Origin: Gemmatimonadota bacterium
GTDB taxonomy: Bacteria; Gemmatimonadota; Gemmatimonadetes; Longimicrobiales; Gaopeijiaceae
DNA length: 64,000 bases
Direction of reading: 5' to 3'
Assembly: GCA_028873595.1 (NCBI GenBank)
Contig: JAPPOV010000044.1
Location: 1 to 64,000 of the forward strand
Of this stretch, positions 1-13,429 are shown in pieces. Made by a program: the position numbers and the translations under genes. Within the stretch, counting starts at the first letter, position 1. Each line of letters begins with the position of its first letter. The notes beneath the pieces are model-generated. The model ran no database searches and was not told the origin of the DNA. It worked only from the letters and a program-made list of their open reading frames with translations.

Positions 1-60
1 CGCTGCGTCAGCCCATTTCGGGCCATTCAGCCGGTACCGCGAGCGAAACTTACCACTCTT

Positions 61-105
61 CCCTCTCAATTGGAGGGGGTCAGTCTTTGACAGCCCAGAT
101 CGCCG
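61..105 (+). promoter_or_regulatory. Hairpin plus truncated promoter module (copy A)
   Basis: A short inverted repeat (CCCTCT, loop CAATT, GGAGGG, 61-77) is followed by TCTTTGACAGCCCAGATCG. The same hairpin-plus-TTTGACAG arrangement precedes the lipoprotein gene at 2383. Here the match stops after CCGT, exactly where the stop codon of the opposing hydrolase gene begins. The -35-like TTGACA (87-92) is kept but the -10-like part and leader are missing. It is probably a broken copy. Bases 1-60 hold nothing I recognise. Confidence 0.55.
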
Positions 106-1032
106 TTAGTTCTGCTGACTTAGTTCCTCGAAGACGATCGGAAGTAGATCCGCTGCTGTCCACGACTCGACTCGGCCCCACCGCTCGTCCAGATCTTCGG
201 TTACCCCAGCGTCCATGACCTCCTGCAATGACGCTCCCCGCTCGACCAGGCGCTGCACGCTCTCGCGAACGTCTAGCATCATCGCCAGCACCTCCAGCAT
301 TCCGCCGCGATCGGTCGTCCCGAATCCGTGCCCGGGGATCACGACCGTCTCGGGGCCTGCGATACCGATCGCGATCTCAAGCGCATCGATCATCCCCAAG
401 AAGCTGCCCCCATTATGGCGATCGATGATGGGATACATGTTGGTCCGGAAAACGTCACCCAAGTGGAGCACGTCGGCTTCGACGAAATGGATGAAGCTGT
501 CACCGTCGGTGTGAGCGGCCGGCGATAGGAAGACGCGCACCTCTTCGTCATTGAGGTAAAACGTGATTCCGTCCGAGTACGTCACGACGGGCAAGGCCCC
601 CTCGGGCGGCTGCGGGAACATGGTGCCCCCACGCCGAGGGATTCTGATCGGAGCCAGCATCCGCAGCCGTACGTTGTCGTGGGCGAAGATCGTGACGCCC
701 TCTTCCCCCAACTGCTCGTTGCCACCGATGTGATCAGGGTGCACATGCGTGTTGATGAGGAACCGGATCTCCGATGGCGAGATCTCCGCGACCGCATCCA
801 TGATGTAATCCGTGATAGGTCCCAGATGATCGTCGATCAGGAGAGCACCCTCGGGTCCGACCAGCACTCCCATGTTTCCCAGGCCACCAGGTGCCTGGAG
901 CATGTATACCGAACCCGACGCGTGGATGACCTCCAGTTGCGTATCTCCACCTTCTTGAGCGACAGCAGAGGAGGAGCCAAGCAACAGCCCGGCGACACAT
1001 GCAAGGATTACGATCCGGGAAACCAAGGACAT
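106..1032 (-). CDS. Exported MBL-fold metallo-hydrolase
   Basis: This is a 308-residue metallo-beta-lactamase-fold hydrolase. The zinc motif THVHPDH gives H96, H98, D100 and H101. Further ligands are probably H174 (AAHTDGD), D193 (HLGDVF) and H235 (IPGHGF). I start at the internal ATG because it gives a clean Sec signal peptide (hydrophobic to about residue 20, then AVAQ). An upstream GTG would add 13 residues before that peptide. Proteins of this type are periplasmic hydrolases of the class B/quinoprotein-relay-like group; the substrate cannot be told. Its 3' end abuts a broken copy of the recurrent promoter module, which suggests a recombination junction at its stop codon. Confidence 0.85.
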   Translation of the reverse strand: MSLVSRIVILACVAGLLLGSSSAVAQEGGDTQLEVIHASGSVYMLQAPGGLGNMGVLVGPEGALLIDDHLGPITDYIMDAVAEISPSEIRFLINTHVHPDHIGGNEQLGEEGVTIFAHDNVRLRMLAPIRIPRRGGTMFPQPPEGALPVVTYSDGITFYLNDEEVRVFLSPAAHTDGDSFIHFVEADVLHLGDVFRTNMYPIIDRHNGGSFLGMIDALEIAIGIAGPETVVIPGHGFGTTDRGGMLEVLAMMLDVRESVQRLVERGASLQEVMDAGVTEDLDERWGRVESWTAADLLPIVFEELSQQN

Positions 1033-1251
1033 CTCCAATCGAAGAGGAATGGGACCAATCAGCACTCGCACTACTTAACGGCTCGGAATTCTGCTGCCGC
1101 ACCTGTGAGTGCGCCAACGAGCGATAGCGAGCTGCCCACGCAGCTTACGCGGACAGCAGCAATTCCTTCAAGAACAGGTCGGTGCCGGCATGAGTGAGTG
1201 TCGGCGCACGAGTGCTGTGGTATTCCAAGCCGTGGGATGGATCTCGAGAGG

Positions 1252-2088
1252 TCAGGGGGTTCGATCGAGAACGGGCGCGCTGGTCGCGGGGTTGGCGTCG
1301 TCTCCGGGATCGTGGAACAGGCCGGCGGCGACGCTGATCTCGATGGCCGGGCTGGCGGCGTCGAGGCAGGCGTAGACGTAATTGTCGGGGTCGTCGTCGG
1401 CCAGTGCGATCGGCTGTACCGTCTTGCCGTCCGCAAGTCGGACTGAGACACCGAGGCGTTGGGGCTCTCCTAGAGTGGCGCCGGCCGGACCGGTGACCCC
1501 GCCTCCCCACACGAGTTGGACGACCTGCGCGGTTTCGGTCGGGCATTCGCCGTCGAGCCCAGGGTTTGTGGGAAGGTAGCGCTCGGCCAGCACGAGGCTG
1601 GGGCCGTCTTCCAGAGGGGTGACATCTTCGGACCGTAGGCCGGTGATCTCGTTGCCGTCGAGGTCGTCGAGCATGCCGACGCCTTCCACCGCACGGAGCT
1701 GGGCGCCGGCGGTGCCGAAGGTGCCCGTAAGCAATACGGTCCGGAGCTCGAGGGGTTCGGTGGCCGGGGCCAGCGTGGCGCAGTCCGGGGTCACGCGGGC
1801 GCCCGTGGCGGTCTCCACCACGAAGTCCTCGGGGGCGACGGTCGCCCCGTCGAGTTGTGCGGAGAAAGTCACGGGGACACCGTCCTGGCCAGCGACGACG
1901 GTCCCGCACAAGAGGCTCGCGGCCATAGGCAGCTCGTCCAGCCCATAGTAGACCGCCAGGATGCGTGGCATCGTGTCGGAGCCTGCATCGGGCAGGCCGA
2001 CGTCGTGCTCAACGGTAACGCCGTCGCACCCCACCGAGGCGGTGATGATTCCAGCCAGCATAAGGCCCAATGTGTATTTCGGGTTCAT
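1252..2088 (-). CDS. Hypothetical lipoprotein
   Basis: A 278-residue protein with a lipoprotein signal peptide (hydrophobic residues 6-18, then SVGC, so Cys21 would be lipidated). The mature part is rich in Thr, Val and Asp, with two evident beta-rich segments and cysteines near residues 61, 103, 181 and 242, and no motif I recognise. It resembles the many Ig-like exported lipoproteins of this phylum. The start is supported by GGGAGGTGG a few bases upstream. A minus-strand TTGACA/TCATTG promoter copy lies about 115 bases upstream, so it seems to belong to the same regulatory family as its neighbours. Confidence 0.7.
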   Translation of the reverse strand: MNPKYTLGLMLAGIITASVGCDGVTVEHDVGLPDAGSDTMPRILAVYYGLDELPMAASLLCGTVVAGQDGVPVTFSAQLDGATVAPEDFVVETATGARVTPDCATLAPATEPLELRTVLLTGTFGTAGAQLRAVEGVGMLDDLDGNEITGLRSEDVTPLEDGPSLVLAERYLPTNPGLDGECPTETAQVVQLVWGGGVTGPAGATLGEPQRLGVSVRLADGKTVQPIALADDDPDNYVYACLDAASPAIEISVAAGLFHDPGDDANPATSAPVLDRTP

Positions 2089-2201
2089 CCTTCCACCTCC
2101 CGCGTGCCACGGAAAAGATCAAGGCTGAGGCCGGCTCGACCGACCATCACGAGTGTGCGTAATGGAGTCGGATCACTGCCCATTCGTTAAAGTGGCACGG
2201 C

Positions 2202-2270
2202 CAATGACCAACCCCTAGAAGTCCTGTCAAAAAAAGAACCTGTCTCCCCACAATCTGCGAAACACAGGTT
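2202..2270 (-). promoter_or_regulatory. Promoter module copy G (minus strand) with upstream hairpin
   Basis: Read on the minus strand, AACCTGT and ACAGGTT (2237-2270) form a 7-bp hairpin followed by CTTTTTTT. Then comes TTTGACAG (2224-2231), and 17 bases after TTGACA comes TCATTG (2202-2207). This is the same order and the same 17-bp spacing as the plus-strand copies, although the spacer sequence differs. It would drive the minus-strand lipoprotein gene ending at 1252. The hairpin plus T-run also looks like an intrinsic terminator, with no obvious minus-strand gene upstream to terminate. Confidence 0.5.
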
Positions 2271-2293
2271 TTCTCTTTGGGGTCGCCTCAGCT

Positions 2294-2348
2294 CCCTCTC
2301 AATTGGAGGGGGTCTTTCTTTGACAGCCTAGATCCCCGTCTGTCATTT
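2294..2348 (+). promoter_or_regulatory. Hairpin plus promoter module copy B
   Basis: CCCTCT/GGAGGG hairpin (2294-2310), a TCTTTCT tract, TTGACA (2320-2325), a 17-bp spacer and TCATTT (2343-2348). TGACAG and CTGTCA in the spacer region form a 6-bp inverted repeat that could be an operator. The following leader contains ACGCTGACCGAG and ends at the ATG of the Ig-like lipoprotein gene. It is the best-preserved copy of the module. Confidence 0.6.
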
Positions 2349-2382
2349 ACTGGCAGGTTACACGCTGACCGAGAGGGCTGAG

Positions 2383-3975
2383 ATGAACGTCCGCCGCCTG
2401 ATTCCGATTCTGATGCTAGGGGTTCTCGCATGCGGGGATAGTGGTTCGGCCCCCAGCGGAGGGAGCACGCCAACGAGTCCAACTCCGGATCCCACTCCCG
2501 TAGCGACCGCGATCACGCTTTCCGCGACAAATCTCACGTTTACGTCGATGGGTGAGACAGTACAACTCTCCGCGACAGTACTGGACCAAAGTGGCAGAGC
2601 GATGCCAGGTGCGACTGTGTCTTGGTCGACATCGGATGGATCTGTCGCTGACGTCTCGTCCACAGGTCTGGTAACTGCGATTGGTATCGGAACGGCGACG
2701 GTTACCGCTACCAGTGGGGCGGCGAACGCGACAGCGTCGGTTCTCGTTGAACAGATGACCGGTGAGTTAGCCGATACTGAGATCGATAGTGGCCCAGCTG
2801 AAGGATCAACGCAGAGAGACACCGAGGCAGCCTTCTCGTTTTTTGCTGATCAGCCAGAGACTTCCTTCGAGTGCCGCCTGGATGGCGGTGCTTGGGCGGA
2901 CTGCGGTGAGACCTCAGAAGGGAGTTTTATTCCCACAGTGTTGTACACGGACCTTGGGGAAGGACAGCACACTTTCGAGGTAAGAGCAGTGAACCCTGGC
3001 GGGCCAGATCCAACACCGGCCATCCGCTCATGGTCAGTCGATTCCACGGGAGGCAGTGGGATCCTGGAACTGGTCACCTCAACCACTGTGGCTGGAGCCG
3101 ATATCTGGTCGGGTCTCTCCTTCCACGGCTCGCACATCCTTCTGACGACGATGATTGGTGGGCAAATCAATCTGGTGAAGTACACCACTGACTTAGTTCA
3201 GGTGGGTGACCCGGTGGCCCTTACCACTGCATCTGACATACCGGCCGGAAAGAATATTGCTGATCACAAACACCTATTGATGGGGGACTTCTTGTTTGTG
3301 GCTTGGTCACCGTCGGGGGATGAGGATCTCTACTTGTTTAAGACGGACGTTGACGGAAACCGTTTAGGGTCACAGGTAGCTGTGGTAGAGGGGTCCTCTG
3401 TGATGACCAACGATATGCATCTTTTTACGGATGGGGTGTCGATTATCGTGATGTATGCCGAGGCCGGTGAAGATCGGTGGGTGAGAGAGTACGACACTTC
3501 TTTAGCGGATTCGGGGCCGCCACGCTTAGTCACGGCACCTGTTCCGCACGACCCGTTGGGAGCGACTGTTTTCCAGAATGAGGGCTATCGGATGTTTGGC
3601 GGAGACGGGAGGAATCGCCACTTGATAGTGGCGAATTGGTCCTCAATGTGGATACCGGAAGAACCATACGAACGTGTGATTGTGCCCTCAACTACAGACG
3701 ACTGGAACTGGTTTGCTACAGGTGTAGCCTGGGATGCCACAGCGAAACGTTGGTTCGTCGGGTATAAACATATGGAGTCTGAAGATGACGCAGAAACCGA
3801 GGGAAAAGTGAGGTTAGCTGTCTTTGACGAGAACTACGGCTTACTCGACCGTCTGGAAGTTCCGGGTTTCCCATGGTTCCGTCCGCACTTCCTACTCGAA
3901 GGAGGGCACCTCTATGTGTCTTACGACAACCAGAGCGATGTGGTCAACCTAGCTAAATACAAGGTTTCCTCCTGA
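2383..3975 (+). CDS. Ig-like (Big_2) lipoprotein with C-terminal propeller-like region
   Basis: A 530-residue exported lipoprotein. The signal peptide ends in VLAC (Cys17). A Pro/Thr-rich linker is followed by a Big_2-type Ig domain at roughly residues 40-125 (WSTSDGSVADVSSTGLVTA). A second Ig-like module at about 130-220 has the pattern FECRLDGGAWADC...GQHTFEVRA. The C-terminal 300 residues have repeated beta-strand blocks (for example LYLFKTDVDGN and VRLAVFDENYG) suggestive of a beta-propeller or lectin-like fold, with no catalytic motif seen. It shares leader, signal peptide and first Ig domain with the BspA-like gene at 9936 but not the C-terminal part, so the proteins are modular. Confidence 0.75.
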   Translation: MNVRRLIPILMLGVLACGDSGSAPSGGSTPTSPTPDPTPVATAITLSATNLTFTSMGETVQLSATVLDQSGRAMPGATVSWSTSDGSVADVSSTGLVTAIGIGTATVTATSGAANATASVLVEQMTGELADTEIDSGPAEGSTQRDTEAAFSFFADQPETSFECRLDGGAWADCGETSEGSFIPTVLYTDLGEGQHTFEVRAVNPGGPDPTPAIRSWSVDSTGGSGILELVTSTTVAGADIWSGLSFHGSHILLTTMIGGQINLVKYTTDLVQVGDPVALTTASDIPAGKNIADHKHLLMGDFLFVAWSPSGDEDLYLFKTDVDGNRLGSQVAVVEGSSVMTNDMHLFTDGVSIIVMYAEAGEDRWVREYDTSLADSGPPRLVTAPVPHDPLGATVFQNEGYRMFGGDGRNRHLIVANWSSMWIPEEPYERVIVPSTTDDWNWFATGVAWDATAKRWFVGYKHMESEDDAETEGKVRLAVFDENYGLLDRLEVPGFPWFRPHFLLEGGHLYVSYDNQSDVVNLAKYKVSS

Positions 3976-3984
3976 CGCCGGATA

Positions 3985-5307
3985 CTAATGGTGGCTATCG
4001 CCGCGCTGAAATTCGAACCAATTGGCTAGGCTCCCGCTACTCGAGAATGCTTCCCCATCACAAGTGAGAGGATCGGCGTCACGCTCGGTCGCTGTGATGA
4101 TAAAATCAGTTCTCGAGGATGCTCCAAGAGCTTCATAGTTCTGGAAAATGCTGTCGGCCATTACGTCGAAATAAGACGACAGCCTGTATGCGTGCCCACC
4201 TGTATTCTCGAGGTTCGGCACGACGATCCCGACTGCTATGTCGCTGTTAGTTCCAGATCCAAAGTGAGTGCCTAGGGCATCACCTGCGTTCACCTCGTCG
4301 CCTAACGAGGGGGGCGAACTCGGAGACATGTGGAATATCGTTACAGAAACTCCGGGGAAGGCACGGGATCCGATGGTTATCGCAGTCCCTGAATCTCCTT
4401 CATGAGACCAGCCGAGGATTGTCCCGTCTATCGGTGAGTAGACCGGGATCGAAGACCAATCTACGGTGGACACCGGGTGGAAGTAGTGCTTCATGCTTCG
4501 GCATACTTCAAAATCGTCGCTAAAGTCATGTCCTGAACTCGAACGGAATAGGCTCACACGATCTATGACGCCGAGATCGATATAGTCCTTCTCGATTATC
4601 ACGGGCAGGCCGTTGGCGGTCACATCATAGGTGGGGTAAGGGTTTCTGGAGCCCGTGAAGGTTCCACTCGCTGTTTCCTCAGAGCTCGTAAAGTCATACA
4701 AGCCGTCGAAAGAAGTCGACCCGGGCGAAAACTCCAGAGCGAGGGTCAGGCTAACCGGACCTGCCTCAGTTGCTAGGGTGACACTTCGTTCATTGAGAGT
4801 TCCCGACCCGGTCAGGGTAGTGCCGGCATGTTCTAGTTGGAATGTGACTGAGGACCCCGTTTGGGTTAAGGAAAGCAGTGATCTTCGCACCCCACCTATA
4901 GATGCGAAGTAATTGCCGGTCACATCCTCAGGCTTAGCTGTCACTTTGACGTTCGATGTACCGCTTTTCCCCCCTGAGAGGGCCGTAATCACGGCCGACC
5001 CCTCCTTCTCAGCAACGATTAGGATGGTCAGTCCTGTGCTGGGTGAGGACACACGAGCGACCATGGGATCGCTAGATGTCCACGTGACGTTCGCATTGCC
5101 CAAGGCACTGCCCGATACGCTTGTTACGCTTGCGGTTAGTTGGATCGTGTCGCCCTCCTCGAGACTAGCCGTCGCTTGACTGACCGAGACGGAACCAACG
5201 GAGTCTACCTCGGGGCTGGTCGCACCACTTCTATCATCACCGCAGCTAAGCAAGCCAATCGATAGGATTAGACAAAATTTCGCCTTTAAAGGGTTTTGAA
5301 TACGCAT
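3985..5307 (-). CDS. Ig-like lipoprotein with M23-like C-terminal domain
   Basis: A 440-residue lipoprotein (LLSC, Cys22) with a Big_2 Ig domain at about 38-125, a beta-rich middle region, and a C-terminal lysostaphin/M23-like fold (YSPIDGTILGW, then GDEVNAGDALGTHFG). The conserved block HDFSDDFEVCRSMKHYFHP lies at about 260-278. In active M23 peptidases the fold carries HxxxD and HxH zinc ligands. Here only H277/D283 and H326 are candidates, and the usual HLHF position reads SDIAVGI. I infer a binding or inactive domain rather than a peptidase. It converges on the preceding lipoprotein with only 9 bases between the stops. Confidence 0.7.
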   Translation of the reverse strand: MRIQNPLKAKFCLILSIGLLSCGDDRSGATSPEVDSVGSVSVSQATASLEEGDTIQLTASVTSVSGSALGNANVTWTSSDPMVARVSSPSTGLTILIVAEKEGSAVITALSGGKSGTSNVKVTAKPEDVTGNYFASIGGVRRSLLSLTQTGSSVTFQLEHAGTTLTGSGTLNERSVTLATEAGPVSLTLALEFSPGSTSFDGLYDFTSSEETASGTFTGSRNPYPTYDVTANGLPVIIEKDYIDLGVIDRVSLFRSSSGHDFSDDFEVCRSMKHYFHPVSTVDWSSIPVYSPIDGTILGWSHEGDSGTAITIGSRAFPGVSVTIFHMSPSSPPSLGDEVNAGDALGTHFGSGTNSDIAVGIVVPNLENTGGHAYRLSSYFDVMADSIFQNYEALGASSRTDFIITATERDADPLTCDGEAFSSSGSLANWFEFQRGDSHH

Positions 5308-5390
5308 GTTGGCCCCGGCGTCGTTGTTCGCACGAATTGTATTCTGCCTGCAGGATGTTCAGAAACTCTACGGTCTCGGTTAGCCAAGGT

Positions 5391-5468
5391 ACGCGCTGAT
5401 GGAGGCCTGACATGAAGAACGCACTACTGCTGTCGCTCGCGTTGATGGTCACTCTTCCACAACCCTGA
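5391..5468 (+). pseudogene. Remnant: module leader plus signal-peptide start, prematurely ended
   Basis: The sequence CGCTGATGGAGGCCTGACATG matches the leader and ribosome-binding region that precedes the lipoprotein genes at 9510 and 9936. It opens an 18-codon frame (ATG at 5412) encoding a hydrophobic signal-like peptide MKNALLLSLALMVTLPQP, followed at once by TGA. The promoter half is not recognisable and no body follows, since an opposing gene ends 2 bases later. This looks like a truncated gene whose 3' part was replaced. Confidence 0.55.
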
Positions 5469-5469
5469 C

Positions 5470-5934
5470 CTATTCCAGATTTGGATTCTCTTGCTCTAGC
5501 GCAGCGACGAAAGTGGGATGATACCGATACCGTTCGTTGGACCAGAACGCCGCGAAGTTCTCGGATGAAAACACAGGTGATCCGGAAAAGTGGTACAGGC
5601 CACTCAACGCGTCAGGAAGAAGCCCCATTTCGCGTTGGAGAAAAGCGTTTTCCATGTTGATGACCAAGGCCTGTTGTAGCCCAGACAAGCGAGTTCGGTC
5701 CCTAGCGTTGAACGAATCTAAGGCTACGCCGTTCCGCAAATAATCTGCCCAAACGCTAGATAGCTCTCCGTCGGTCACAATACTGAGCAGGAGATCCCTC
5801 TGGTTGGACGCGAGCTCGTTTATCGCTGAAGCGCGCGCGATTGTGTTGTTCTGGCGCATCTCCAAGCCGACGAATACGAGACTGAGGACCACAGCAAGTA
5901 GTCCCACAGATTCACGTAGCTGTTTCTTACCCAT
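5470..5934 (-). CDS. Small membrane-anchored protein of unknown function
   Basis: A 154-residue protein with one N-terminal transmembrane helix (about residues 9-25, VGLLAVVLSLVFVGLEMRQN) and a mainly helical remainder. It belongs by eye to a large family of uncharacterised proteins that begin with this helix followed by (E/Q)xRQN and end in an F..FW....Y...F segment (here FAAFWSNERYRYHPTF). AGGAGG lies six bases before the chosen ATG; a GTG one codon upstream is too close to it. Function is unknown. Base composition is lower in GC than the later genes. Confidence 0.65.
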   Translation of the reverse strand: MGKKQLRESVGLLAVVLSLVFVGLEMRQNNTIARASAINELASNQRDLLLSIVTDGELSSVWADYLRNGVALDSFNARDRTRLSGLQQALVINMENAFLQREMGLLPDALSGLYHFSGSPVFSSENFAAFWSNERYRYHPTFVAALEQENPNLE

Positions 5935-6238
5935 CACGAACCTCCTGCATTGAAGTCATTCGGAAGGCTGCAGGGGAGCGGTCTAGTCGCGCAATGTCTG
6001 GTGCTGCTTTCTAAGTCGCTTTGGCTTACGTGACCCCGCAAGGCTCCAGGGCGTGCCAAAATGCCTTTGCCGTCGACGCCGCGAGATAGGAAATGGAGCC
6101 GGTAGTACCCGCGTCAGGATCATGCCGCTCTTCCTCACCGGTCATGACCTCACCGTCGCGTAGGATTTCCATGCGCTTGAGCAAGTCAGTGGTAATCCCC
6201 AAAGAAGCGGGACAATTCACACCTGCTGCCGCGCCAGC
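5935..6238. other. Intergenic stretch without a supported gene
   Basis: About 300 bases between the small membrane protein and the next promoter copy. A 64-codon minus-strand frame (6026-6220) is present, but I see no ribosome-binding site, motif or recognisable family in it. It may be a decayed remnant. A weak GCTG/CAGC hairpin lies just before the promoter copy. Confidence 0.4.
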
Positions 6239-6317
6239 TTTGACAACCCAGATAGCCGTCTGTCACTTACGCTGCGGCATAAGCGCCTCTCATGCCCGCA
6301 GAGCAATCGAGAATCCG
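6239..6317 (+). promoter_or_regulatory. Promoter module copy C (Tat-leader subtype)
   Basis: TTGACA (6240-6245), 17 bp, TCACTT (6263-6268), with the conserved spacer core CCAGATAGCCGTCTGTCA. The leader down to the ATG at 6318 and the first dozen codons align with the copy before the PLP-enzyme gene at 11061, which encodes an unrelated product. The shared stretch covers about 110 bases and I count roughly 80 percent identity by eye. Confidence 0.6.
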
Positions 6318-6905
6318 ATGAACGACTACGATCGACGCACCTTCCTGAAGCATGCGGGTGCGGCCGTCTCGGCGGGTGCGATAGCCGGGCCGGACGCCCT
6401 AACCGAGCCGCTCAAGGACGCCGCACGCACCCTCGATCCGGTACTACTCCGGTCGCTCGGAGACGCGGTGCTGCCTGAGTCCCTGACCGAGGAGGGGCGG
6501 GAGGCCGCAGTTGTCGCGTTCGAGGTATGGCTGGCCGGGTTCCAGCCTGTCGCCGAGTTACGTCACCCCTACGGTGGAGACGTCGTTCCGTACGGGCCAC
6601 CCGACCCCGAACCGGGGTGGTCGGCTCAGTTGGACGCGCTCAATCTTGCAGCGGGGGCCCGACATGGTTCGTCCTTCGCCGGGCTCGATCGGTCCCAACG
6701 ACGTGCCATTCTGGACCAGCAGGTGGAGGATGAAGGACAGGATTTTCCCCTTCCGGCGCGGGCTCGCCATGTAGCTGTGGGCCTCATGGCACATTACTTC
6801 GGCTCGCCGGCCGCGAATGATCTCTGTTACGGTCGGCGCATCGATAGAGAGACCTGCAGGTCGACTGACGGTGTGAGCCAAGTACCACCACCTCTCGGGG
6901 CCTGA
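6318..6905 (+). CDS. Gluconate 2-dehydrogenase subunit 3 family protein (Tat-exported)
   Basis: A 195-residue protein with a Tat signal (MNDYDRRTFLKHAG, then an alanine-rich h-region). The rest has the all-helical look of the gluconate 2-dehydrogenase subunit 3 family (LRSLGDAVLPESLTEEGRE, then HYFGSPAANDLCYG). In characterised FAD-dependent sugar dehydrogenases this small subunit is the hitch-hiker that carries the cofactor-loaded catalytic subunit through the Tat pore. The catalytic subunit gene starts 5 bases after this stop. A longer frame opens upstream, but the shared leader and Tat motif fix this ATG. Confidence 0.82.
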   Translation: MNDYDRRTFLKHAGAAVSAGAIAGPDALTEPLKDAARTLDPVLLRSLGDAVLPESLTEEGREAAVVAFEVWLAGFQPVAELRHPYGGDVVPYGPPDPEPGWSAQLDALNLAAGARHGSSFAGLDRSQRRAILDQQVEDEGQDFPLPARARHVAVGLMAHYFGSPAANDLCYGRRIDRETCRSTDGVSQVPPPLGA

Positions 6906-6910
6906 GGACC

Positions 6911-8488
6911 ATGCCCCGTCGTATCGAATCGGATGTCTGCGTCATTGGATCGGGCATCACGGGCATTCTGGCCGCCGAGCGGCTGTCCGAGCTCACGGAC
7001 GACTCGATCGTCATGGTTGAGGCGGGCGGGCGTACAACGCCTCCGCGGGATCGCGTACGTCGGAGGCGTCGGATGCTCGACTACGGGGAGAACCCCTGGA
7101 TTGCTGACCACATCCGCGATCAGGACGGCACCGGCCTCATGTACCGTACGATGGTCGTCGGTGGGTGCGCGATGCACTGGGACGGGGCTACGCCGCGCTT
7201 CTCACCCGAGGATTTCCGCCAACGTTCAACCTATGGCGTCGGAACGGACTGGCCGATCGACTATGACGAGATCGAGCCATACTACCACGAATTCGAGGAG
7301 CGTGTCGGCGTGGCGGGTGAACAGGGGCCGCCAGAGTACGATCCGCGGTCGAAACCGTACCCGATGCCCCCTCTACCGCTGTCCTATAATCTCGAGGTCC
7401 TCAAAGACTGGGCCGCGAACGCAGGAATTCCATTCTGGACGCAGCCTTGGGCTAAAGCGACAACCACAGCGCACGGCCGCGCCGTGTGCCGACGCTGCGA
7501 TACGTGTCACGTCTGCCCCACAGGCGCGAAGTTCACGCCCGACCTTGTACTGGACCGCCTCATTGATTCCGGACGTGTCCGGCTCGTCACGGAGACACTA
7601 GTCCGTCGCCTGGAGCTGGAAGCGACGTCCGATCGAATCGAGTACGCGGTCGCGGTCGATCGCAACGAGCCTGGCGAGCCGGTCGAGTTCCACGCCCGAA
7701 CGTTTGTGCTCGCTGCCGGTTACTGCTGGAGTCCTCACCTGCTCCTGCTCTCCGCGAACTCGCGCTTCCCCAACGGCTTGGCCAACTCCTCGGGGCTCGT
7801 GGGTGCGTACATGACCGGGCACCCTTTCATGAGCGCGCAGATAGAGCTCCCGCTCGAGCTATATCCGGGGATGTTTCAGACTAATTCGCTCCTCTCTCGC
7901 GCGTTCGCCCGCCCGGGCCCGCTCGAGCGCTACGTCCGGCATGACCTGAGGATCTGGGATTCGACCTCGGGTCGTACGCCCCGCCTCCGGGACCGGGATG
8001 GCCACATCCAGTACGGTGACACCGTCATGGACGATTGGCGCACGCGGACGCGCATGTCGTCCGCGAGAGTGCGTGGCTACTACGACGTGATCCCCGATCG
8101 AAGTAGCCGTCTGACGCTCGACGGCACGAAACGAAATCGCTGGGGCGATCCGCTTCCCAAGATCGAGTTCCGTGACGCACCCGAATCGGTCGAACTCAGG
8201 CAGTATACGCACGACACGATGATCGCTCTGTTCGAGCGGATGGCGCGCGCGGGGGGCGGATCCGTCATGTCGACCACGTTCTCACCCAAGATGGAGCATC
8301 CGGGCGGCGGGTGCCGCATGGGTGACGCCCCGGGTACGAGCGTGACCGACTCTTATGGTCGAACCCACGATCACGAAAATCTCTTCGTCATCGGTGCGCC
8401 CACACTGGTGTCGGGAGGCTGTGCCAACGGCACCCCGACCTTCTCGGCACTGGCGCTGCGATCGGCGGAGGAGTTGGCACGGGGCTAG
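6911..8488 (+). CDS. GMC-family FAD oxidoreductase, large subunit
   Basis: A 525-residue glucose-methanol-choline-type flavoprotein. The N-terminal Rossmann motif reads VIGSGITGILAAERL, and the GMC C-terminal signature includes HPGGGCRMG and SGGCANGTPTFSALALRS. A cysteine motif CxxCxxCxxCP (Cys193, 196, 199, 202) sits where related FAD-glucose dehydrogenase alpha subunits ligate an Fe-S cluster. It has no signal peptide, which fits export with its Tat-tagged partner encoded just upstream. The substrate is probably a sugar or polyol. The multihaem cytochrome c subunit normally found in such three-part enzymes is not encoded next to it. Confidence 0.85.
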   Translation: MPRRIESDVCVIGSGITGILAAERLSELTDDSIVMVEAGGRTTPPRDRVRRRRRMLDYGENPWIADHIRDQDGTGLMYRTMVVGGCAMHWDGATPRFSPEDFRQRSTYGVGTDWPIDYDEIEPYYHEFEERVGVAGEQGPPEYDPRSKPYPMPPLPLSYNLEVLKDWAANAGIPFWTQPWAKATTTAHGRAVCRRCDTCHVCPTGAKFTPDLVLDRLIDSGRVRLVTETLVRRLELEATSDRIEYAVAVDRNEPGEPVEFHARTFVLAAGYCWSPHLLLLSANSRFPNGLANSSGLVGAYMTGHPFMSAQIELPLELYPGMFQTNSLLSRAFARPGPLERYVRHDLRIWDSTSGRTPRLRDRDGHIQYGDTVMDDWRTRTRMSSARVRGYYDVIPDRSSRLTLDGTKRNRWGDPLPKIEFRDAPESVELRQYTHDTMIALFERMARAGGGSVMSTTFSPKMEHPGGGCRMGDAPGTSVTDSYGRTHDHENLFVIGAPTLVSGGCANGTPTFSALALRSAEELARG

Positions 8489-8640
8489 CCCCGCTGTCAC
8501 GTCGACCCCACGCGCAACTGACGGCCAAGTGCACCGAGATAGATCCAGCGCGAAGCCGACGAACTGCATGCTGAACTGAGTTTTCGAAGAAGAAGAACAA
8601 GCCGTTACGCGCCCACTGGACCTGTCTCAAGGGAGCCGAG

Positions 8641-9396
8641 ATGTCCGAACGTGAATTATTGAGGAAGCCGTTGGCTAGGTCGAATGGATCTCGTGTGAAG
8701 GATGGCGCGATGATTGTCGCGAGCATCTTGGTTGCTTTCGGACTCGAGGCCTCCTGGGGGGTGCTTCAGGAGCGGCAAGTGGAAAGGACACTCAGAGCTG
8801 AACTCGCTGCCGAGTTTGTTGACGCTCGAGAGCGTATCGAGGGAAATGCTGAATTCCTCAAGCGTGCAGGGGAAGCGATTCAAGACATTCTGGTCCTGAT
8901 GGGGCCCGATCCTGAGCTCGTTCCAGCGGACTCAGTCGTTTTTCTGCTCATGGAAAGTGCGCGCACCTACACCCTCGACATGCCCTCGAGTGTTGTCGAA
9001 TCGGTCGTTACCACCGATCAACTCTCGATCATCCAAGATCCGAACTTGCGGCGCGCATTATTGCGGTGGCCTGTCCTACTGGATGACGTGCTAGAAAATC
9101 ATGAATGGATTGTCGATCAGTATCGAAACCAGTTTGTGCCCACCACGGCTCCCTGGGTTTCCGTGCGGGACATCTATGCGATGGACTACAGCCTTGGAAG
9201 GGTCCGTGAGATTGCCCCTTTCCGGTCTCCAGGACGGTCCCGATTTGGTGTAGACGTTGACGCCTTGCTTGCGGACCGGAGCCTTGAGCAGGTCCTCTCG
9301 TTTCGGTTGCAGTTTCTATATATCACCGTTTTAGAGACTGAGGCCTTACTCAGTGCGGCGGACGAAATTCTTTCAATGCTTGGTGCCAATCCGTGA
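8641..9396 (+). CDS. DUF6090-like single-helix membrane protein
   Basis: A 251-residue protein with a basic N-terminus, one transmembrane helix at about residues 22-40 (AMIVASILVAFGLEASW) and an E/R-rich helical segment after it (LQERQVERTLRAELAAEF). The remainder is soluble and mostly helical. The layout matches the DUF6090-type family, whose function is unknown. It stands alone: the 152-base gap upstream has AAGGGAG before the ATG but no copy of the TTTGACAG module. Confidence 0.6.
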   Translation: MSERELLRKPLARSNGSRVKDGAMIVASILVAFGLEASWGVLQERQVERTLRAELAAEFVDARERIEGNAEFLKRAGEAIQDILVLMGPDPELVPADSVVFLLMESARTYTLDMPSSVVESVVTTDQLSIIQDPNLRRALLRWPVLLDDVLENHEWIVDQYRNQFVPTTAPWVSVRDIYAMDYSLGRVREIAPFRSPGRSRFGVDVDALLADRSLEQVLSFRLQFLYITVLETEALLSAADEILSMLGANP

Positions 9397-9404
9397 GGAA
9401 CTTT

Positions 9405-9477
9405 GCCCGTGCACGCAGATATCTGCCGCGGGGAGACGGGCTCTTTCTTTGACAGCCCAGATTGCCGTCCGTCAGTT
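9405..9477 (+). promoter_or_regulatory. Hairpin plus promoter module copy D
   Basis: GCCCGT/ACGGGC (9405-9410 with 9436-9441) encloses the perfect palindrome GCAGATATCTGC and is followed by TCTTTCTTTG, a plausible intrinsic terminator for the preceding gene. Directly after come TTGACA (9449-9454), 17 bp, and TCAGTT (9472-9477). The leader GGTTAAACGCTGACGGAG leads to the ATG at 9510. Confidence 0.58.
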
Positions 9478-9509
9478 ACTGGTAGGTTAAACGCTGACGG
9501 AGACCTGAC

Positions 9510-9878
9510 ATGAAAACCTTGAAACGATCCATAGCGATTATCGCAATCAGCCTGTCTGGCTGCGTTACGATCGACAAGTCAATCCTGTTAGACAGGTCGG
9601 CTTATCCCGTGCCGATGAATACCGTTCAAGCTCTGATCGAGACGGACACTGTGCCCGAAGATTGTCAGCGGGTGGCGATGCTCCATGCTGAGGGGCCAGA
9701 GATCTGGACGAACGAAGCAGACATGTGGGATAAACTGCGCGAAGAAACGGGACTGCTTGGGGGCAACGCAGTTCAGCTCTTGTTTATGGGAGGCCCGAAC
9801 TGGGCTGAGCGGCTCGTCAGTGACGATCCAGACTTTGATGCTTCCGCGATCGCACTTTGGTGCCCGAGCCTTCTTTAA
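9510..9878 (+). CDS. Small lipoprotein (possibly DUF4156/RcsF-like)
   Basis: A 122-residue lipoprotein: the signal peptide ends LSGC (Cys18). The mature region has DTVPEDCQRVAMLHAEG, a short spacer and a LREETGLLGGNAVQLL segment. That layout recalls small outer-membrane lipoproteins of the DUF4156/RcsF type (cysteine-containing strand, then a helix ending in GAN-V). The assignment is tentative. Its stop codon lies inside the degenerate TTTAACAG of the next promoter module, so the C-terminus is set by the module boundary. Confidence 0.6.
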   Translation: MKTLKRSIAIIAISLSGCVTIDKSILLDRSAYPVPMNTVQALIETDTVPEDCQRVAMLHAEGPEIWTNEADMWDKLREETGLLGGNAVQLLFMGGPNWAERLVSDDPDFDASAIALWCPSLL

Positions 9879-9903
9879 CAGCCTGAATTACCATCTGTCT
9901 TTT
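9874..9903 (+). promoter_or_regulatory. Promoter module copy E (degenerate)
   Basis: TTTAACAGCCTGAATTACC followed by ATCTGTCTTTTAC: TTAACA (9875-9880), 17 bp, TCTTTT (9898-9903). The leader CACACGCTGACCAAGATCTG precedes the ATG at 9936. It overlaps the TAA stop (9876-9878) of the upstream lipoprotein gene. No convincing hairpin precedes this copy, unlike copies A, B, D and F. Confidence 0.5.
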
Positions 9904-9935
9904 ACCGGCAAATCACACGCTGACCAAGATCTGAC

Positions 9936-10910
9936 ATGAAGTTCCGACGCCTGATTCCAGTCTTGCTGCTAGGTGCAGCCTCGTGTGGAGGTGATAAGTC
10001 CGGGGGAGGCACGACGCCGACTCAACCGGTTGTTCCAGTCGCGACTTCGATCATTCTGTCGACTTCGTCGCTAACCCTTAATTCTCTGGGGGACACCGCA
10101 TCGCTCACAGCAACCGTGGAAGATCAGACGGGTGCGGTCATGTCGGGTCAGACAGTGACGTGGAGTTCGTCCGATGATGCCGTGGTTACGGTCAGCACAG
10201 CCGGTCTTGTGACAAGCGTGGCCACAGGAACCGCTACCGTTACGGCGATAAGTGGTTCGTTAAGTGCGACGGTTTCGGTGATATCTGCTCCGTTGTTCTA
10301 CCTCCACAGCAACGGAGTGACGGTGGTGTGTTCAACTGCTTCGGTTGGCGATACCGCAACCGTGAGTGGGACCCTCTATACCAAGCGGACAAAAGCTCAG
10401 ATTACGACAGAAAACGCCGCGACAAGCTGCACCAGTGATGTGACCGATATGTCCCGGTTGTTCGAGAACGCCTCTTCGTTCAATGAGGATATCGGCTCAT
10501 GGGACGTCAGCAGCGTCACGAATATGCGCACCATGTTCCACGGCGCCGACGCGTTCAATCAAGACATTGGGTCGTGGGACGTTAGCAGCGTCTCCGACAT
10601 GAGAACCATGTTCACCAATGCCACGGCGTTCAATCAGGACATCGGGTCATGGGACGTCAGCAGTGTCTCGAACATGTCCTACATGTTCTCCAATGCCACG
10701 ACGTTCAATCAGGACATCGGGTCATGGGACGTCAGCAGTGTCTCGCTGAGCATCTACATAGATCACATGTTCGAAGATGCCGTGGCATTCAATCAGGACC
10801 TGAGCAGCTGGTGCGTATCGAACATCCCAGTCGCACCCGTTTTCTTTGACAGAAGGGCGACGGCATGGACCCTCCCACGCCCAGTCTGGGGCACTTGTCC
10901 GGGCGGCTGA
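9936..10910 (+). CDS. BspA-type (DUF285) surface lipoprotein with Ig-like domain
   Basis: A 324-residue lipoprotein (signal ending AASC, Cys17). It has a Big_2 Ig domain at about 35-115 ([18 protein letters not shown]) and then a series of 25-residue DUF285/BspA-like repeats with the core [13 protein letters not shown] and the cap MF..A. It ends in the usual WCVSNI...PVWGTCP C-terminal cap. Proteins of this class are surface-exposed and often bind host or matrix ligands. The signal peptide and Ig domain match the gene at 2383, but the C-terminal module is quite different, which points to domain shuffling. Confidence 0.85.
10479..10862 (+). repeat. Tandem 75-bp coding repeats (DUF285 units)
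   Basis: The word TTCAAT recurs at 10479, 10554, 10629, 10704 and 10788, giving three 75-bp periods and one of 84 bp (three extra codons). Units starting at 10629 and 10704 are nearly identical at DNA level, which suggests recent duplication. Each unit encodes one 25-residue BspA-like repeat. Confidence 0.9.
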
Positions 10911-10932
10911 TTCTTTGTCTCCGATTGCTAAT

Positions 10933-11014
10933 CCTCCAGAATGGTGACCGTGATCGTGTCTCCATACCGGAGGTTCGGGTTCTATTTGACGGCCTAGATC
11001 ACCGTCTGCCATTT
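10933..11014 (+). promoter_or_regulatory. Hairpin plus promoter module copy F (Tat-leader subtype)
   Basis: CCTCC...ATGG pairs imperfectly with CCAT...GGAGG (10933-10973). This is followed by TTCTATTTGACGG. TTGACG (10986-10991), 17 bp, CCATTT (11009-11014). The leader (CGGCATCAGC, then GCACAGCAATCAAGC) and the first Tat codons match those of copy C. Confidence 0.55.
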
Positions 11015-11060
11015 ACGCCGCGGCATCAGCACCCTTCGCCGCACAGCAATCAAGCATGCG

Positions 11061-12305
11061 ATGAACGACTACAGTCGACGTACCTTCCTGAGGAGAACCG
11101 CTGCGGCAGGGCTCGCGGCCTCAACAGGCAGCCTGTCCCTTCCCTTACCTACAGCCGCTGCCGCACGCTCGGCTCAGGAAGACTTCAACGACCCTCTCGG
11201 AGTCCGAGCACAGTTCCCAGTGACTGACGAGCTGGCCTATCTCAATACGGCCTCCCAGGGTCCCATGCCACGTCCAGTCCACGAAGCGGTGGCCGCATAC
11301 GCTGAAGAGAGGATGACGTTTCGGAACCCCGGTCGTCAGCGAGCGACATTCGATCGAGCTCGAGAGCGGTTCGCCTCCCTCTTCGGTGCCGAGCGAGATG
11401 AGATTGCCTTTCTTTATTCAACTAGTGACGCGGAGAACCTTGTCGCCAACGCGATAGACTGGAAGCCTGGTGACAACATCGTGGTGGACGAGTTGCACTT
11501 TGTGACAGCTTTCGTCGTTTTTCGAGAGCTTGAGCGAAGGTCCGGGGTGGAGCTCCGCATTGTGCCTGCCATAAATGGAGAAGCGAGGCCAGAGGACTAC
11601 GCCGCTCGCACGGATGCGCGTACTCGCCTGATTAGCGTGGCGTGGGTATCGAACCGAAATGGCTTTCGGCATCACCTACCGACCCTAGCCGAGATCGTCC
11701 ACGACCGCGGTGGCTACCTGTACGCGGACGGCATTCAAGCTTTCGGAACCTTTCCCACGGATCTGCACGCGGAGGGCGTGGACTTCGCCTGTGGAAACGG
11801 GTACAAATGGCTGTTTGCTGACTTTGGCTGTGCGCCACTGTACGTGCGTAGTGAGCACCTGGATTGGATGCGCCCAGACCGCTTCGGCCATGGTCAGGTA
11901 ATGGAGACGCTCCCCGACAATCGATACGAGCTTACAAGGACCGCGGGAAAGTTCGAGTACGCTAACCCTTCTCACGCATCGATCGCCGCAATGGATGCCG
12001 CGCTAGGGTTCGTGTCGGATGTTGGCCTCGACCGCATCGCACGGCACACCCACACACTCGCTGGTGAGTTGCGTAGTGAGCTGTTCAGGCTAGGGCGCGA
12101 TCTCTTTACGCCGGCCGGCAACCCCTCCGCGATCGTAAGCTGCTACCACAACCTAGATCCTGATGGGCTCGGGAGAGCGCTTGAGCAGGAGGGTGTCCGG
12201 TTCACCTTTCAGGAAGAGGGCAAACTTCTCCGTCTAGCAGTGGCTATGTTCAATAACCGCGATGACGTAGACCGCCTGATCCGAGTGATTGCGCGAATGG
12301 TTTAA
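11061..12305 (+). CDS. Tat-exported class V aminotransferase-fold PLP enzyme
   Basis: A 414-residue fold-type I PLP protein of the class V (isopenicillin N epimerase/cysteine desulfurase-like) family. Visible features are the Tat signal (SRRTFLRR, residues 5-12), a LNTASQGPMP entry segment, YADGIQAFGTFP with the cofactor-binding Asp, and the Schiff-base lysine K249 in NGYKWLF. The lid segment is FEYANPSHASIAA. Cytosolic homologues are usual; a Tat signal means this enzyme is folded with its cofactor before export, so it likely acts on a periplasmic amino acid or amino sugar. The reaction is unknown. Promoter, leader and signal are shared with the gene at 6318. Confidence 0.82.
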   Translation: MNDYSRRTFLRRTAAAGLAASTGSLSLPLPTAAAARSAQEDFNDPLGVRAQFPVTDELAYLNTASQGPMPRPVHEAVAAYAEERMTFRNPGRQRATFDRARERFASLFGAERDEIAFLYSTSDAENLVANAIDWKPGDNIVVDELHFVTAFVVFRELERRSGVELRIVPAINGEARPEDYAARTDARTRLISVAWVSNRNGFRHHLPTLAEIVHDRGGYLYADGIQAFGTFPTDLHAEGVDFACGNGYKWLFADFGCAPLYVRSEHLDWMRPDRFGHGQVMETLPDNRYELTRTAGKFEYANPSHASIAAMDAALGFVSDVGLDRIARHTHTLAGELRSELFRLGRDLFTPAGNPSAIVSCYHNLDPDGLGRALEQEGVRFTFQEEGKLLRLAVAMFNNRDDVDRLIRVIARMV

Positions 12306-12396
12306 GTTGGAAAACGAGGCTCTCGGAGCCCACGGAACAACGACAATCGACGATTCAGCCGGGCGACAACGAAACGATTACGGAAACGTCAGCATC

Positions 12397-12876
12397 ATGT
12401 CTTTGTTGGGGAACATCATTTGGTTTTTCCTTGGGGGTTGGTTACTCGGAGCGGGCTACTTTTTAGCGGCTGTGGTCTTTTTTCCACTGTTCCCCTTCTT
12501 GTTGCCTCTCGTGGGGTACTCATTTTTCCCTTTTGGAAAATCACCCGTCCGGCGTTCTGATATAAACGCGTGGAAAGAAAGTAGAGGAGAAGAGTTAGAT
12601 CTTTCGGGGACGAAGCTTGCCAGTGGCTGGCTTCGATTTCTCTCGAATGTTGTGTGGGTTTTTACTTTTGGCTGGGTTCTAGCGCTCGGACACTTGTTTG
12701 CTGCGATGATGAATTTATTTGCATGCGCAGCGGTGGTGACCATTCCCATCTGCGTGGCTCACATGATGGCACATTTCAAACTCATCCCCGTGGCCTTTCG
12801 ACCCTTCGGCGTGAGGATCGTGCCCACTGCGCTCGCGGATGAAATCAAGATGGCGAGTATCGCTAAGTCTTTTTGA
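12397..12876 (+). CDS. YccF domain inner-membrane protein
   Basis: A 159-residue membrane protein with two YccF-type halves. Each has the NI(I/V)WFFLGGW-like opening (here SLLGNIIWFFLGGWLLG and LSNVVWVFTFGWVLALGH) followed by hydrophobic helices and a FxPFG segment. The family is widespread and uncharacterised. A longer frame starts 108 bases earlier, but the chosen ATG begins exactly at the conserved domain start. The gene is low in GC compared with the following ones and marks the end of the AT-rich accessory stretch. Confidence 0.8.
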   Translation: MSLLGNIIWFFLGGWLLGAGYFLAAVVFFPLFPFLLPLVGYSFFPFGKSPVRRSDINAWKESRGEELDLSGTKLASGWLRFLSNVVWVFTFGWVLALGHLFAAMMNLFACAAVVTIPICVAHMMAHFKLIPVAFRPFGVRIVPTALADEIKMASIAKSF

Positions 12877-12955
12877 GCGTCCACCTCAACGCATTCATGA
12901 GTTTATGTGCGTCGAGCCAACCGTCTTTGCGGCCTGATGAATGCAGTGCGTCTGT

Positions 12956-13429
12956 TCAAGACCATCGTCGATCGCTCGGACGGCGGGCACCACGCGCTCG
13001 AGGGTATTCCGCGTAGTAGCGTTCAACGGTCTCCTTGCAGGCCTCTTCATCGCGTATGTCTACCCGCACGCCACGGCCCTCCAGAAGCGATTTCGTGTCA
13101 GCCGCGTTATAGGAGCTGACTTCGGCAACCACGACCGTAGACAGCCCGAACCGTATGATCGCTCCCGAACACATTTCGCACGGCATCATCGTGGTGTAGC
13201 AGGTCGCGTCGGCAAGGAGGTCGAGCAACTCGTGGTCCCCTGCCCGGCTCGCTGCATCACGGATGGCCTCCATTTCCGCGTGGGTTGTGGGGTCGCCGGT
13301 CTGAGTGTAGCGATTAAACCCCGCCCCGATGACGTGGCCGTCCTTGACGATGACCGCGCCAACGGGAAAGCCCCCCTCTTCGAGCGAGGCCACGGCCTGC
13401 CTGTGCGCCGCGGCAAGATGTGGCTCCAT
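12956..13429 (-). CDS. Cytosine deaminase, yeast FCY1-type
   Basis: A 157-residue zinc deaminase of the cytidine/deoxycytidylate deaminase superfamily. Zinc and proton-shuttle residues are H50 and E52 (THAEME) and C84/C87 (MPCEMCSGAI). Length and C-terminal half (IRFGLSTVVVAEVSSYN, LEGRGVRVDI, then ERY) resemble fungal cytosine deaminase far more than the amidohydrolase-type bacterial CodA. It should convert cytosine to uracil, though guanine or another base is possible. GAGGAGGTG upstream of the ATG fixes the start; a longer frame extends a further 41 codons without support. Confidence 0.85.
   Translation of the reverse strand: MEPHLAAAHRQAVASLEEGGFPVGAVIVKDGHVIGAGFNRYTQTGDPTTHAEMEAIRDAASRAGDHELLDLLADATCYTTMMPCEMCSGAIIRFGLSTVVVAEVSSYNAADTKSLLEGRGVRVDIRDEEACKETVERYYAEYPRARGARRPSDRRWS

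Follow-up and report, generated by a model that had tools for sequence, protein, structure and literature searches.

A 32-bp core repeat, TTTGACAGCCTAGATCNCCGTCTGTCATTTAC, is common to six plus-strand sites (copies A to F) in the first 11 kb of a 64,000-nucleotide stretch of DNA from Gemmatimonadota bacterium (NCBI GenBank assembly GCA_028873595.1), here termed the window, which is the first 64 kb of contig C12 in a genome (G000) of 3.2 Mb and 52 contigs. We consider that the repeat is probably (at a probability of roughly 0.6) the shared front end of clade-specific, self-contained gene cassettes, consisting of a promoter/operator and a leader, and that the cassettes are shuffled by recombination at this point. 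We infer from the sequence that the core has promoter activity and a regulator that binds its dyad, as well as the route of recombination.

Core repeat structure and conservation

The core is laid out with TTTGACA on the left and GTCA-TTTA on the right, and contains the dyad TGACAG-N13-CTGTCA, with the almost invariant T15 at its centre, the arms of the imperfect dyad being 11 bp each around a 7-bp centre. A first-pass annotation of the window had proposed this dyad as an operator, and it is indeed kept among the copies. The same annotation had described a TTGACA-N17-TCATTT module; the repeat is real but the shared block is larger, comprising the 32-bp core and, in many copies, a leader of about 30 nt like TGGCAGGTTACACGCTGACGGAGATCTGATATGAAG, which ends with a Shine-Dalgarno sequence and the start codon ATG. 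A different leader is found with the core in C, F, C15, C24 and C47. At the left edge of the core, C precedes TTTGACAG in 43 of 50 copies, and in 20 of 49 copies a same-strand open reading frame (ORF) starts 61-64 nt after the core.

By letter counts, at least 37 of 40 distinct cores retain each of TTTGACA, T15, G24, T25, C26, A27 and T30; the 40 were hand-picked from 57 profile rows by merging identical copies and excluding half copies and the weakest rows, a choice that raises the apparent conservation. Among homologous copies (8 groups), 1 of 64 columns varies in the left 8 positions, 39 of 120 in the middle 15 and 7 of 64 in the right 8 (Fisher p 9e-8), with the blocks defined after the alignments had been viewed. 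The ends of the core are fixed and its middle drifts in homologous copies, which amounts to a constraint at two ends.

The arms could also form an RNA hairpin, UGACAG/CUGUCA, and 94% of the cells in the TGACAG/CTGTCA stem can pair, as would be expected if the repeat were a structured RNA leader. This explanation is nevertheless very improbable, as the 17 distinct copies contain no compensatory (both-sided) change, with no excess over shuffles, and an Rfam search of window positions 1-13000 gave no match at E ≤ 0.5. A hairpin or terminator just upstream, which had been described as part of the arrangement, belongs to some copies only. When 8 upstream stretches were folded and compared with shuffles, two were far better, those before C52:443 (z -6.4) and G095:C12 (z -4.1); the values for B, A and an item on the minus strand of the window were -1.2, -0.6 and -1.9, respectively, and the stretches upstream of D, E and C7:7207 folded no better than shuffles. 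The terminator scan placed a site before one of the 7 window items (B), with a total of 6 sites, below the shuffle mean of 8.3.

Copy number and distribution

A 31-letter pattern of the core, allowing up to 3 mismatches, gave 4 matches in the window, compared with 0 in each of 100 shuffles, and 18 matches in the whole genome, compared with 0 for the reversed control. A chance origin of the repeat was rejected on these controls and on the scans of the family genomes described below. A 48-column sequence model built from 19 copies yielded 25 genome matches at E ≤ 10, of which 24 are at E ≤ 2.1e-4 and the 25th is at 0.77; within the window its matches are A to F only, so that the earlier remark that no copy lies between 12 and 64 kb holds. 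Cores also occur in same-strand arrays, with 5 on contig C7 spaced 532-860 bp apart and 4 on C52.

The core repeat family has a narrow, clade-specific distribution. Cores at E ≤ 0.001 were found in 6 of 121 genomes of the family, in a search run with stricter filters: 24 in G000, 11 in G095, 3 in G096, 4 in G097, 6 in G098 and 1 in G090, which belongs to another genus. The other 9 genomes of the genus contained no core at this threshold. The bipartite pattern TTTGACA-N16-GTCATTTA, with at most 1 mismatch, occurred in 8 of the 121 genomes (16 in G000, 15 in G095, 3, 3 and 2 in G096 to G098, and 1 each in three others), and its reversed control gave 0 in every one. Across GTDB species genomes, in a scan that may leave out records near the window's own, the exact 31-letter pattern was present in 8 stretches, all in four Gemmatimonadales metagenome-assembled genomes (MAGs), namely Gemmatimonadales bacterium UBA2975, UBA7835, UBA2960 and UBA4456. 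Carriage by viruses was rejected, the exact pattern being found in 0 stretches of viral contigs.

A tree of a transporter from 10 genomes groups the five core-bearing members of the genus together, with a 100% bootstrap split from G106, G102 and G103; the group also includes two genomes of 63-64% completeness, G107 and G100, in which no core copy was found. The assemblies are all fragmented, with several of the cores sitting at contig ends. G098 and G090, which are of different genera, share one core-bearing segment (L090, L096) at 99.5% identity over 1239 bp, which may reflect recent transfer or contamination.

Assortment of flanks and tRNA loci

The flanks of the core move INDEPENDENTLY, and the assortment breaks at the 5' edge of the core. 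Out of 25 copy pairs homologous up to the core, 21 have unrelated DNA behind it, beyond the shared leader, and among 18 pairs homologous for at least 100 nt behind the core, 14 have unrelated DNA before it. Both flanks are shared by four pairs, three of which represent one vertically kept transporter locus. The count covers 48 of 51 copies, as 3 copies without a flank were excluded, removing 3 of 28 upstream pairs. Upstream and downstream flanks assort independently at the core. The earlier idea of a sequence that spreads by recombination as an expression unit agrees well with this, the module standing before unrelated genes genome-wide and its flanks appearing recombined at the core.

Individual loci illustrate the pattern. 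The similarity of the C47 unit to G095:34 and G098:33 starts at the core and ends at about +373, whereas the latter two match each other for 3.7 kb. The transporter stands with a core behind a transfer RNA (tRNA) gene, tRNA-Arg, only in G095, G096 and G098; in G107, G000, G100 and G097 it is preceded by other DNA, without a core. One locus has both cassette-free relatives and an inverted cassette: the tRNA-Gly slot measures 210 bp in G096 and 312 bp in G098, compared with about 670 bp including the cassette in G000, and in G097 the same cassette is inverted relative to its neighbours and accompanied by other DNA.

Cores are often found close to tRNA genes: of 53 cores, 13 have one no more than 1 kb away, representing 10 tRNA loci, a count that includes overlapping cores and orthologues. 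For comparison, the coding-rich control DNA contained 0 tRNA genes across 192 kb surrounding 84 sigma genes, 1 between 13 and 64 kb of the window, and 5 across 75 kb surrounding 22 recombinase loci. None of the array copies, whether on C7, on C52 or in the window, has a tRNA gene within 1 kb. Beside tRNA-Gly(ccc), a C-terminal remnant of a tyrosine integrase is present in the window's genome (contig C24, L025:7911-8123) and in G097 (L279:1468-1608), and it marks an old island there. When 9 integrase-like queries were run against the other core loci, no match was better than E 0.009; the old tRNA island therefore explains one slot only and was rejected as a general explanation.

Recombinases and sigma factors

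Tyrosine recombinases were surveyed in G000 and G095-G098. Phage_integrase matches number 4 in G000, two of these recombinases being phage-like, and 2 in each of G095-G098, where the best fits are XerD and XerC; in total, 10 of the 12 fit XerC or XerD best. In G000:C43 (L030), a phage-type integrase followed by a terminase-like ORF likely marks a prophage, on a contig that also bears a decayed core at 396. A relative without cores, G101 (L183-L190), has 9 tyrosine-recombinase matches, compared with 2 in each core-bearing relative of the genus.

Small genes bounded by short dyad sites are a feature of Xer-based dif and pdif modules, and it is possible, though unlikely, that the core's chief role is as a recombination site for XerC/XerD or another site-specific recombinase, its promoter role being secondary. 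The dyad arms, the sharp left edge with C before TTTGACAG (43 of 50), the tRNA neighbours and the inverted cassette would suit such a site, as would the half copies, of which A, C43:396 and G098:121 keep the left part and C52:1616 and C49:5648 the right part. These half copies would be debris of recombination at the repeat or traces of site-specific exchange; however, their break points differ and some are merely contig ends. Moreover, both halves of the core are kept at the vertically inherited transporter locus, where exchange is unneeded, and the four core-bearing relatives of the genus have only XerC- and XerD-like tyrosine recombinases. The letters of the core are presumably unlike those of dif, for which no search was made. 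A related and likewise doubtful proposal is a non-integron cassette system in which the 5' 32-bp dyad serves as promoter/operator and exchange site at once, capture and expression form one step, and the tRNA-side slots are the landing places.

The same-strand arrays of small unrelated genes on C7 and C52 recall a chromosomal integron, whose cassettes would carry attC sites, but such an origin is highly unlikely. With genomes 84-96% complete, all 12 tyrosine recombinases fall far short of the 265-bit cut-off for integron integrases, 11 scoring 29-139 bits and one having no such match. At attC sites a GTTRRRY-like run of letters is expected; the core is 32 bp and such a run is not conserved among its copies. 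No attC site with R'' and R' boxes was seen by eye in an alignment of 20 copies, no attC program having been run.

As to the transcription machinery, the cores do not fit a sigma-70 (RpoD) promoter, for which TTGACA and a TATAAT-like hexamer at a spacing of 16-18 nt are expected: the first hexamer is perfect in most copies, the second is not. An alternative sigma factor, for instance of the extracytoplasmic function (ECF) type, could account for the bipartite constraint, the 16-nt spacing and the GTC-containing element on the start side, a layout that we take to be ECF-like; the cores would then form a vertical regulon in which gene movement is incidental. We find this improbable. When 84 Sigma70_r2 proteins from 8 genomes were grouped at 45% identity, no group was restricted to two or more core-bearing genomes, and the unusual sigma factor put forward in the first-pass annotation thus received no support. 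All 7 sigmas of G095 and all 7 of G096 fall in groups also held by core-less relatives, and two singletons are unique, one to G000 and one to G097. The bipartite pattern is also absent from the 9 other genomes of the genus that share all or most of the sigmas (compared in 3 of the 9), and the shuffling of flanks is too general for a vertical regulon. As no clade-specific sigma and no integron integrase were found, a common-sigma promoter spread by recombination at the repeat is favoured.

Genes behind the cores

A Pfam scan of 30 proteins encoded downstream of cores left 12 without a family at E ≤ 0.01 and revealed no recombinase and no sigma factor. The families identified include Ig-like lipoproteins, DUF285, class-V aminotransferase, Gluconate_2-dh3, ABM, SnoaL/DUF4440, DUF3192, MORN_2, RmuC (present in 1 of 14 genomes of the genus), DUF3303, a beta-lactamase-fold serine hydrolase, a Tricorn-type peptidase and an M20 peptidase. 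The association with exported proteins described earlier applies to the genes of the window, judged by eye from their N-termini, but is not general: of the 46 ORFs downstream of cores in the full set of copies, 12 have a lipobox-like motif, one of them doubtful. Many further copies were found, as had been forecast, with mixed cargo rather than exported genes alone. Similar promoter-like sequence precedes non-homologous genes within one genome (24 good matches), as is expected of a mobile promoter. Similar-looking membrane-anchored proteins of about 250 amino acids (aa) recur in the arrays (window:8641-9396, L019:9242-10009, L019:8408-9151 and L020:5532-6284); the three that lie behind cores have no Pfam family.

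Features of the window

The positions of the core copies given in the first-pass annotation were confirmed for B to F and for the half copy A. The first 85 bases of the window (1-85, plus strand) are identical (85/85) to the DNA in C4 between a tRNA-Ala gene (L021:1790-1863) and the C4 core. They are followed by copy A (86-106), which was detected by the sequence model and retains only the left part of the core, and at which a minus-strand ORF (106-1071) ends. Given the identity of the preceding bases, copy A could represent either an additional copy or a variant allele at the tRNA-Ala slot. The seven copies originally counted amount to six on the plus strand, with A a half copy and E degenerate. 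The seventh, placed at 2231-2202 of the minus strand, is at best a decayed core (2201-2232, 5' of a minus-strand ORF at 1252-2088), with a profile score of -13 compared with 3 for A and 36 to 58 for B to F, although it retains TTTGACAG and GTCATT.

Copies B, C, D and F were detected by pattern and sequence model, and all of the following features lie on the plus strand. Copy B (2319-2350), a consensus core, is preceded by a terminator-like hairpin with a T-rich tail (2291-2313), which was called by the terminator scan with a folding z of only -1.2, and is followed by an aligned leader (2351-2382) and a Big_2 lipoprotein-like gene of 530 aa (2383-3975, ORF and Pfam scan). A leader remnant without a core (5388-5417), recognised by eye, stands before a short broken ORF, and its adjoining bases match C52. 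Copy C (6239-6270), with the other leader, precedes a Gluconate_2-dh3 gene with a twin-arginine translocation (TAT) signal (195 aa, 6318-6905, ORF and Pfam scan). Copy D (9448-9479) heads a lipobox-bearing gene of 122 aa from the ORF list (9510-9878), the stop of which overlaps the degenerate copy E (9874-9905, sequence model). Behind E lies a Big_2/DUF285 lipoprotein-like gene of 324 aa (9936-10910), and behind copy F (10985-11016), whose leader is related to that of C, a class-V aminotransferase-like gene of 414 aa (11061-12305), both from ORF and Pfam scans. Outside the core region, ARAGORN called a selenocysteine tRNA on the minus strand (window:53770-53866).

Proposed mechanism and comparison with known systems

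In the favoured explanation, the most likely role of the 32-bp core is that of a promoter containing its own dyad operator; a common sigma factor would use this promoter, and a dyad-binding protein, perhaps clade-specific, would act at the operator. Genes would shift between chromosomal slots, many of which adjoin tRNA genes; each would take along the core at its 5' end, and the DNA upstream of the core would stay in place. The likeliest route would be recombination, homologous or through short homology, with the repeated core and leader as its anchor, and selection would retain the copies that express their gene.

Several points weigh against this explanation. None of the 7 window items is recognised as a promoter by a sigma-70 consensus scan, and the cores show no convincing -10 element; the conservation of T15 and of some middle positions exceeds the needs of a bare promoter; and the sharp common left edge could also reflect a site-specific event. 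Recombination of the flanks is deduced from juxtapositions, and G034-type contig-end copies, together with MAG breaks at the repeat, hide many junctions.

If correct, the explanation would show how bacteria that lack an integron integrase can assemble acquired and duplicated genes into arrays and express them as soon as they arrive, the promoter, the leader and the homology for exchange all being provided by a single repeated element. A limited search of the literature, in partly available texts, found no report of this repeat. Dispersed repeats of 90 and 150 bp are described in two cultured strains of the same phylum (PMC11237797); the available part of that account describes no promoter role, and the likeness was judged by description, though in the GTDB scan the core occurs only in the four MAGs. 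Integron cassette arrays, including cassettes with their own promoters (PMC11014356, PMC6557892), are, in the portions available, similarly directional arrays of small genes with a repeat at each junction, whereas here no integron integrase and no attC-like site were found, and the repeat is promoter-like and lies 5' of each gene. Mobile promoters, or promoter propagation in prokaryotes (Matus-Garcia 2012 and van Passel 2014, as cited in PMC8049555, PMC5017796 and PMC9208149), resemble the present system, as far as those citing texts describe them, in that near-identical short promoter-like sequences precede unrelated genes in one genome. Unlike them, the element here has a leader up to the start codon, heads arrays of small genes and frequently has tRNA genes nearby, and its gene seems to move together with it. 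A variant of the mobile promoter is the best reading of cassettes with a common promoter/operator and leader, and it would provide a clear natural case for that idea in a phylum with few cultured species, only six according to two abstracts.

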